NCBI RefSeq assembly: GCF_024124745.1
Contig: NZ_JAMXRU010000004.1
Location: 1-64,000 of the forward strand
Direction of reading: 5' to 3'
DNA: 64,000 nucleotides
Source: Aeromicrobium sp. CnD17-E
Lineage (GTDB): Bacteria > Actinomycetota > Actinomycetes > Propionibacteriales > Nocardioidaceae
The first letter of the stretch is position 1. Each line of letters starts with the position of its first letter. The position numbers were made by a program, and so were the translations under genes. The notes under the pieces were generated by a model that saw only the letters and a program-made list of their open reading frames with translations, was not told where the DNA came from and did no database searches. Positions 13,164 to 13,547 of the stretch are shown here, piece after piece.

Positions 13164-13239
13164 GCACCCCTAGCTCAATTGGCAGAGCAGCTGACTCTTA
13201 ATCAGCGGGTTCACGGTTCGAGTCCGTGGGGGTGTACCA
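13164..13239 (+). tRNA. tRNA-Lys (anticodon CUU)
   Basis: Acceptor GCACCCC pairs with GGGGTGT, the anticodon stem-loop is GCTGA-CTCTTAA-TCAGC giving CUU, and the T-arm is CACGG-TTCGAGT-CCGTG. The 3' CCA is encoded. TAATGT at about 13144-13149 is a plausible -10 box. A terminator and two more copies of the 3' half plus terminator follow. Confidence 0.96.
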
Positions 13240-13547
13240 GACAGAAGGCCTCGACCACCACGGTCGGGGCCTTCTCCACGTCCGGACAGCCCCCAAGACT
13301 CCCTCGACACACCAGCCGACTCCTCATCAGCGGGTTCACGGTTCGAGTCCGTGGGGGTGTACCAGACAGAAGGCCTCGACCACCACGGTCGGGGCCTTCT
13401 CCACGTCCAGCAGGACCGAACGCCCCCAGCCCCAAGACCCCCTCGACAGACCACCTGACTCTTCATCAGCGGGTTCACGGTTCGAGTCCGTGGGGGTGTA
13501 CCAGACAGAAGGCCTCGACCACCACGGTCGGGGCCTTCTCCACGTCC
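13191..13547 (+). repeat. Three 93-bp copies of tRNA-Lys 3' half plus terminator
   Basis: The units are 13191-13283 (inside the true tRNA and beyond), 13316-13408 and 13455-13547. Each holds the 3' strand of the anticodon arm, the complete T-arm, the 3' acceptor strand with CCA, and a terminator hairpin. The spacers of 32 and 46 bp are themselves related (both contain a CCCCAAGAC-like core). Copies differ by only a few bases; copy 3 has anticodon loop CTCTTCA instead of CTCTTAA. Copies 2 and 3 lack the 5' half of the tRNA, so they cannot make tRNA-Lys. Confidence 0.92.
13243..13275 (+). terminator. tRNA-Lys terminator hairpin (first of three)
   Basis: Arms GAAGGCCTCGACC and GGTCGGGGCCTTC form a 13-bp stem with one G-T pair, followed by a short pyrimidine run. 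The same hairpin recurs in the two downstream repeat copies. Confidence 0.75.

Follow-up and report, generated by a model that had tools for sequence, protein, structure and literature searches.

The closest described relatives of the locus analysed here are the tyrT-type repeats of E. coli, named tRNA-linked repeats (TLRs), of which 22 at ten loci are reported in the cited part of a 2021 paper (PMC8144298). The same part dates their first description to 1978, gives them no known function up to its own publication, and records that an early claim of a role for a tyrT repeat in starvation recovery was retracted. It also describes three rRNA-linked TLRs that are transcribed through terminator read-through, one rRNA-linked TLR RNA that ends 3 nt beyond the copied 5S end, and the rRNA-linked TLR RNAs RrA, RrB and RrF, for which transcription and Hfq/CsrA binding were demonstrated (PMC8144298). 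At the E. coli tyrT/tyrV locus (L314), four repeats were found, of which three follow tyrV and are spaced 178 bp apart. Three repeats begin with GGGGAAGGAT, which is complementary to ATCCTTCCCC of the tRNA end, and the remaining one begins with GGGGAAGGGT; the Rfam RtT model (RF00391) gave four matches there. Among open-licence PMC papers, we found no report of such repeats in actinobacteria.

The window, that is, the whole 64,000-nt stretch of DNA that was analysed, carries a tRNA-Lys(CTT) gene followed in tandem, as the original prediction had described, by two more units. The spacings are 125 and 139 bp. The features of this array are the following.

13164-13239, + strand: parent tRNA-Lys(CTT) gene with encoded CCA (ARAGORN; Rfam tRNA, 64.6 bits)
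13243-13275, + strand: terminator-like hairpin of the parent, within the identical 83-nt block; a long hairpin fold in all three units
13289-13364, + strand: copy 2, full-length diverged tRNA-Lys (14 changes in nt 1-37, zero in nt 38-76)
13428-13503, + strand: copy 3, full-length diverged tRNA-Lys (15 changes in nt 1-37, zero in nt 38-76)
13368-13400 and 13507-13539: copies of the hairpin in units 2 and 3, with the long hairpin fold
13201-13547, + strand: span of the three identical 83-nt blocks (13201-13283, 13326-13408 and 13465-13547), each from tRNA nt 38 to trailer position 120

The repeats are far beyond chance. When the tRNA-Lys 3' part and trailer were compared with the downstream sequence using blastn, matches appeared at +74..169 (96 nt, 97%) and +216..308 (93 nt, 99%), which bears out the predicted near-identity up to 13547. 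The T-arm, 3' acceptor strand, CCA and terminator hairpin, rightly assigned to every copy, lie within the 83-base blocks and are unaltered across all three units. The claim that copies 2 and 3 are without the 5' half proved wrong. Aligned ungapped from nt 1, their 5' 43 nt share 29/43 and 28/43 identities with the parent, 14-15 of the 43 bases being altered, and the same comparison shifted by one base gives 9-12/43 identities; over all 76 nt, the copies are gap-free and in register with the parent. From this difference between the in-register and shifted comparisons, units 2 and 3 are full-length diverged tRNA copies, not 3' halves. A direct local alignment of the 5' half gave shuffle p values of 0.014, 0.000 and 0.076 for the three units, and the in-register comparison is the stronger evidence. 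The anticodon loop, CTCTTAA in the parent, is CTCCTCA and CTCTTCA in the copies, and neither copy is called as a tRNA by ARAGORN or the Rfam tRNA model. We also looked within the Lys unit for the tRNA 3' end in inverted orientation, which shuffling did not support (p 0.25, 0.70 and 0.68 in units 1, 2 and 3). Since the draft of this genome (G000; 3.57 Mb) consists of 219 contigs, the exact copy number of the array is less sure than the presence of copies. Elsewhere in the window, positions 48560-48888 hold four 80-bp repeats in tandem, which are 97% alike and share an inverted-repeat core; they are placed behind or between genes and are unrelated to the tRNA arrays.

To place the array among relatives, we used the 553-aa protein encoded next to it, which is 93% identical to its counterpart in a MAG record (L086; its genome is G058) and has 65-69% identity to the next four records, three from Aeromicrobium and one from 'actinobacterium LLX17'. 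Comparison of copies among relatives gave a divided answer: the nearest relative, L086, bears one Lys copy, and the other 57 of 58 Lys(CTT) tRNAs in the relatives' loci have zero copies, two of the 58 having less than 300 nt downstream. Among 30 Lys tRNAs in another set of 29 relatives' loci, only L070 was flagged, with a tandem pair of whole tRNA genes. The array is therefore local to the lineage yet older than one species split. Eleven changes (A3C, C7A, T8A, A9G, G10A, A14C, A15C, T17C, G19A, G24C and A37C) are common to both window copies and the L086 copy, which indicates that the diverged Lys copy predates that split. Copy 2 and the L086 copy show 3 differences in their first 43 bases, and their spacers differ in length and sequence. 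All 14 of 14 changes fall in the first 43 nt, for which P is ~6e-7 if changes are spread evenly over nt 1-120. At trailer base 113, the three window units carry C and the two L086 units carry T; differing between the genomes and uniform within each, this one site points to concerted evolution of the Lys units, and the suggestion that their near-identity arose through gene conversion is supported to that extent. Homogeneity in L086 is imperfect, its copy differing from its parent at trailer base 98. Behind the Lys copy of L086 (12000-12210), a stretch of ~200 bp that is absent from the window contains the start of a small ORF, antitoxin-like by eye.

A second array, missed by the original prediction, lies in the same window.

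3260-3334, + strand: tRNA-Arg(TCT), parent of the second array (ARAGORN)
3335-3462, + strand: two identical 64-bp units of Arg(TCT), each with a diverged D/anticodon part and an unaltered 3' part

We then compared each ARAGORN tRNA plus 60 nt with its own flanks, to 1400 nt downstream and 600 nt upstream, for 47 tRNAs in G000, 48 in G058 (one of unknown type) and 47 in G005. For G000, we counted downstream direct copies that include 15 nt or more of the tRNA 3' end; the count excludes self-inverted terminators and matches to neighbouring tRNA genes (Glu). On this count, 7/47 tRNAs of G000 have a downstream copy of their own 3' end: Ala(GGC), Arg(CCT), Arg(TCT), Gly(CCC), Lys(CTT), Ser(GCT) and Ser(TGA). 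At Thr(TGT), the trailer is repeated with 5 tRNA bases and there are inverted copies as well, and Ser(GGA) has a decayed unit. In G005, a single contig, Ser(GGA) and Ser(TGA) have three copies apiece, and Gly and Ser(GCT) have copies too; the self-copies of G058 are at Asp(GTC), Gly, Lys and Ser(GCT). As the array sites overlap only in part among the three genomes, gain and loss of arrays seem to be frequent.

Several further observations were made at these arrays. Directly after the anticodon, the tRNAs Lys(CTT), Arg(TCT) and Arg(CCT) have A and their copies have C.

13289-13364, 13428-13503 and 3335-3462 of the window, and 1576-1680 of L012: copies with A to C after the anticodon

Copying of modified tRNA by reverse transcription, considered from this change, was dropped because the units contain the trailer and many other changes. 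A second kind of unit, seen at Gly(CCC) (L007) and Thr(TGT) (L014), consists of 11 T-arm bases copied exactly in inverted orientation, then the stretch GCGGCGAAGCCGCCGGAC, which the units share, then the tRNA 3' end; it is present at Thr in all three scanned genomes and at Gly in similar form. At Ser(GGA) of G005 (L261), Ala(GGC) (L027) and Leu(CAG) (L267), the first terminator arm has two partners in succession, the second of them longer and extending back to the first base after the tRNA, so that two mutually exclusive, attenuator-like hairpins are predicted. In G058 (L231; C15, 19365-19529), the first 40 nt of tRNA-Pro(GGG) are copied just upstream with 98% identity, a 5'-half counterpart.

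At sister loci, we identified a conserved 43-nt hairpin module, denoted R1, which is absent from the window; neither the Lys nor the Arg array there matched the R1 model significantly. R1 is laid out as GATTYGRGGAGGAG, a variable hairpin, CGACGGRGTCC and then the tRNA 3' end, and is common to many Ser, Ala, Arg, Leu and Pro units of the genus, presumably Aeromicrobium for the genomes searched. A 14-mer of R1 had 26 matches in 7/12 genomes and its reversed control 0. Twenty-four of the 26 follow a same-strand tRNA at a distance of 17-397 bp, and the other two lie ~4.8-4.9 kb behind the tRNA-Ser(GGA) of G058 (L291, G058 C4:284500-294000), where an ABC-transporter gene and a transposase-type gene occupy the stretch from tRNA to repeat. 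Beside this ABC-transporter gene there is also a small secreted-looking ORF with no Pfam match. A gapped R1 pattern occurred in 11/394 genomes of the class and 5/137 genera (control 0), at 18 places that are all behind a tRNA except a pair in G399, which is the same genome as G058 by contig coordinates. With the R1 covariance model, 63 matches were obtained at E<=0.01 in 20/37 genomes of the genus, 17 being without any; 49 of the 63 lie within 600 bp behind a tRNA and 14 elsewhere. Six of these 14 are at inserted DNA (one in G011, three in G021 and two in G399), and for the other eight, which score at most 34.3 bits, no tRNA was found. The G011 match is behind a tRNA-Ser(GGA) 3' half; the three in G021 are behind a tRNA-Arg 3' end with an intact T-loop, beside a PF00589 integrase gene. 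At 35 bits or above (n=50), 44 matches are directly behind a tRNA and 6 behind displaced tRNA ends at inserted DNA. In a phylum-wide draw with stricter filters, R1 was present in 6/248 genomes, all of the same class.

The whole named R1 structure exceeded shuffled and slid controls in percentage paired and covariation score, and its 'further pair types' were not above shuffles (211/500). Columns 17-18/38-39, at the base of the inner hairpin, pair in 98% of cells across 27 distinct R1 units with compensatory changes (C-G 17, G-C 9, A-U 1). The inner columns 19-22/31-34 are paired in only 42% of cells, and RNAalifold prefers another outer pairing (columns 11-13 with 47-49) than that counted. Only columns 17-18 with 38-39 are well supported and the outer helix is uncertain; some conserved R1 columns were imposed by the search pattern. 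The left box of R1, GATTYG, is complementary to CRAATC of the tRNA, which we take to be nt 56-61 by the usual numbering. Its Y is C in 36/36 units with a G57 tRNA and T in 18/18 with A57, so that in 54/54 units the box base corresponds to nucleotide 57 in the T-loop of the unit's own tRNA (Fisher p 1e-14, the units not being independent). The rule holds within one tRNA species as well: Ser(GGA) units with A57 (L305, L362) have T and the others have C.

By analogy of layout, the Lys array belongs to the TLR kind. We tentatively propose that it is a variant TLR array with the whole tRNA and its terminator as the unit, acting by read-through and 3'-trimming, a working model to which we give somewhat less than an even chance. 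The tRNA-Lys gene and terminator would have been duplicated in tandem before the split from the nearest relative, the 5' half of the duplicate would have lost tRNA function, and later duplication and conversion would have held the 3' half and terminator parent-like. A fraction of polymerases may pass the first terminator, after which the 3' tRNA module of the next unit (T-arm, acceptor strand and CCA) would act as a signal for RNA 3'-end trimming and the unit's own terminator would end transcription. The output would be short tRNA-tailed RNAs and back-up termination, both coupled to tRNA-Lys expression. The anatomy of the array, its identical block, its age and its recurrence behind other tRNAs are observations; transcription, processing and any role of the copies are what we infer. 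We favour this model because the 83-nt blocks are identical against 14-15 changes in nt 1-37, because 11 changes are common with the L086 copy and the trailer site is uniform per genome, because similar arrays stand at 7/47 tRNAs of the genome, and because the cited part of PMC8144298 describes read-through of rRNA-linked TLRs and the E. coli tyrT repeats have this layout. Against it, whole-tRNA copies are unlike those of E. coli, and RF00391 and R1 are unmatched. Concerted evolution is seen at one site, and, the Lys array being missing from most relatives, nothing points to a role that this particular array has retained over long times.

It is nearly as likely that the array is a functionless converted duplication, in which the copies decay as pseudo-tRNA genes while exchange with the parent, by gene conversion or unequal crossing-over, preserves the identity of the 3' half and terminator. 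That the copies are uncalled as tRNAs, that the array is limited among the scanned loci to this genome and its nearest relative, and that copy numbers vary between close genomes would all fit such decay. It accounts less well for the restriction of every change to nt 1-37, the following 83 being unaltered, for the retention of the altered 5' part itself between copy 2 and the L086 copy (3/43 differences) while the spacers differ, and for the recurrence of arrays at several tRNAs. A broader reading, which we regard as rather doubtful, is that TLRs are widespread structured RNA devices, each built of a T-loop/T-stem antisense box, a hairpin and a copied tRNA 3' end, that co-evolve with their own tRNA; R1, in Aeromicrobium and a few other actinobacteria, would then be a read-through product that serves as a tRNA-specific regulator or processing guide, and the two arrays in the window, Lys and Arg, would be its pseudo-tRNA form. 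The TLR layout behind many tRNAs of an actinobacterial genus, together with an R1 box that tracks nt 57, provides a comparative data set on repeat function, and the match between nt 57 and the left box makes a role of TLRs open to a simple mutational test.

It is quite unlikely that the Lys copies were left as attachment-site scars by integrative elements with tRNA-Lys as their attB. Islands do occupy tRNAs in the genus, as beside the G021 array, and at L166 (G010 C3:89500-94900) a tRNA-Lys is followed ~2.7 kb on by its 3' half and terminator with an HTH_3 gene between, an island-type contrast to the window. Against scars, the Lys units are spaced 125-139 bp apart; Islander rejects intervals below 2 kb (PMC4383910). 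PF00589 has four matches in the genome and none on the window's contig, copies 2 and 3 have changes in the anticodon loop, which is kept at a real junction (G011), and the 5' half of the copies is a tRNA copy, not foreign DNA. Island scars were accordingly rejected for the Lys array on spacing, integrase absence and the altered loop. They were rejected for the R1 units too, because the T-loop, which is not kept in R1 units, is preserved where inserted DNA joins in G021, as is the anticodon loop in G011. Mobilisation of the RAYT/IS200 type was also discarded, PF01797 being absent in 37/37 genomes of the genus with 5/14 control genomes positive. That short-read assembly made or miscounted the repeats is highly improbable, for although the genome is split over many contigs, copies 2 and 3 differ at 7 places in their 5' 43 nt, the L086 record too has a copy, and the single-contig G005 has arrays at other tRNAs.

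Taken together with known systems, the Lys array resembles the tRNA fragments of genomic islands, as described in the cited parts of PMC4383910 (Islander) and PMC9897764, in having a tRNA gene and its 3' part in direct orientation; it differs in that no island or integrase lies between and the loop is altered. Like RrA, RrB and RrF, it contains a copied 3' end of the upstream RNA that would be reached only by read-through of the first terminator; for those RNAs, the cited part of PMC8144298 reports transcription and Hfq/CsrA binding, and the Lys array is known here from sequence. The likeness to E. coli tyrT/rtT put forward in the original prediction stands for layout and fails for the sequence model: RF00391 had no match in the Lys locus (L029) or 11 other loci at E<=10, and none in the window at the gathering score. 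R1 likewise had no significant match in E. coli (best 11.5 bits, E 0.24), which argues for likeness of layout rather than proven descent. The Lys copies differ from E. coli TLRs in covering the whole tRNA and its terminator. As in the tyrT/tyrV repeats, in the part of the literature cited, they lie directly behind a tRNA gene on the same strand, number one to several per locus and end in the tRNA 3' end, the identity extending over 39 tRNA bases (nt 38-76) plus trailer against 18-19 bp in E. coli.
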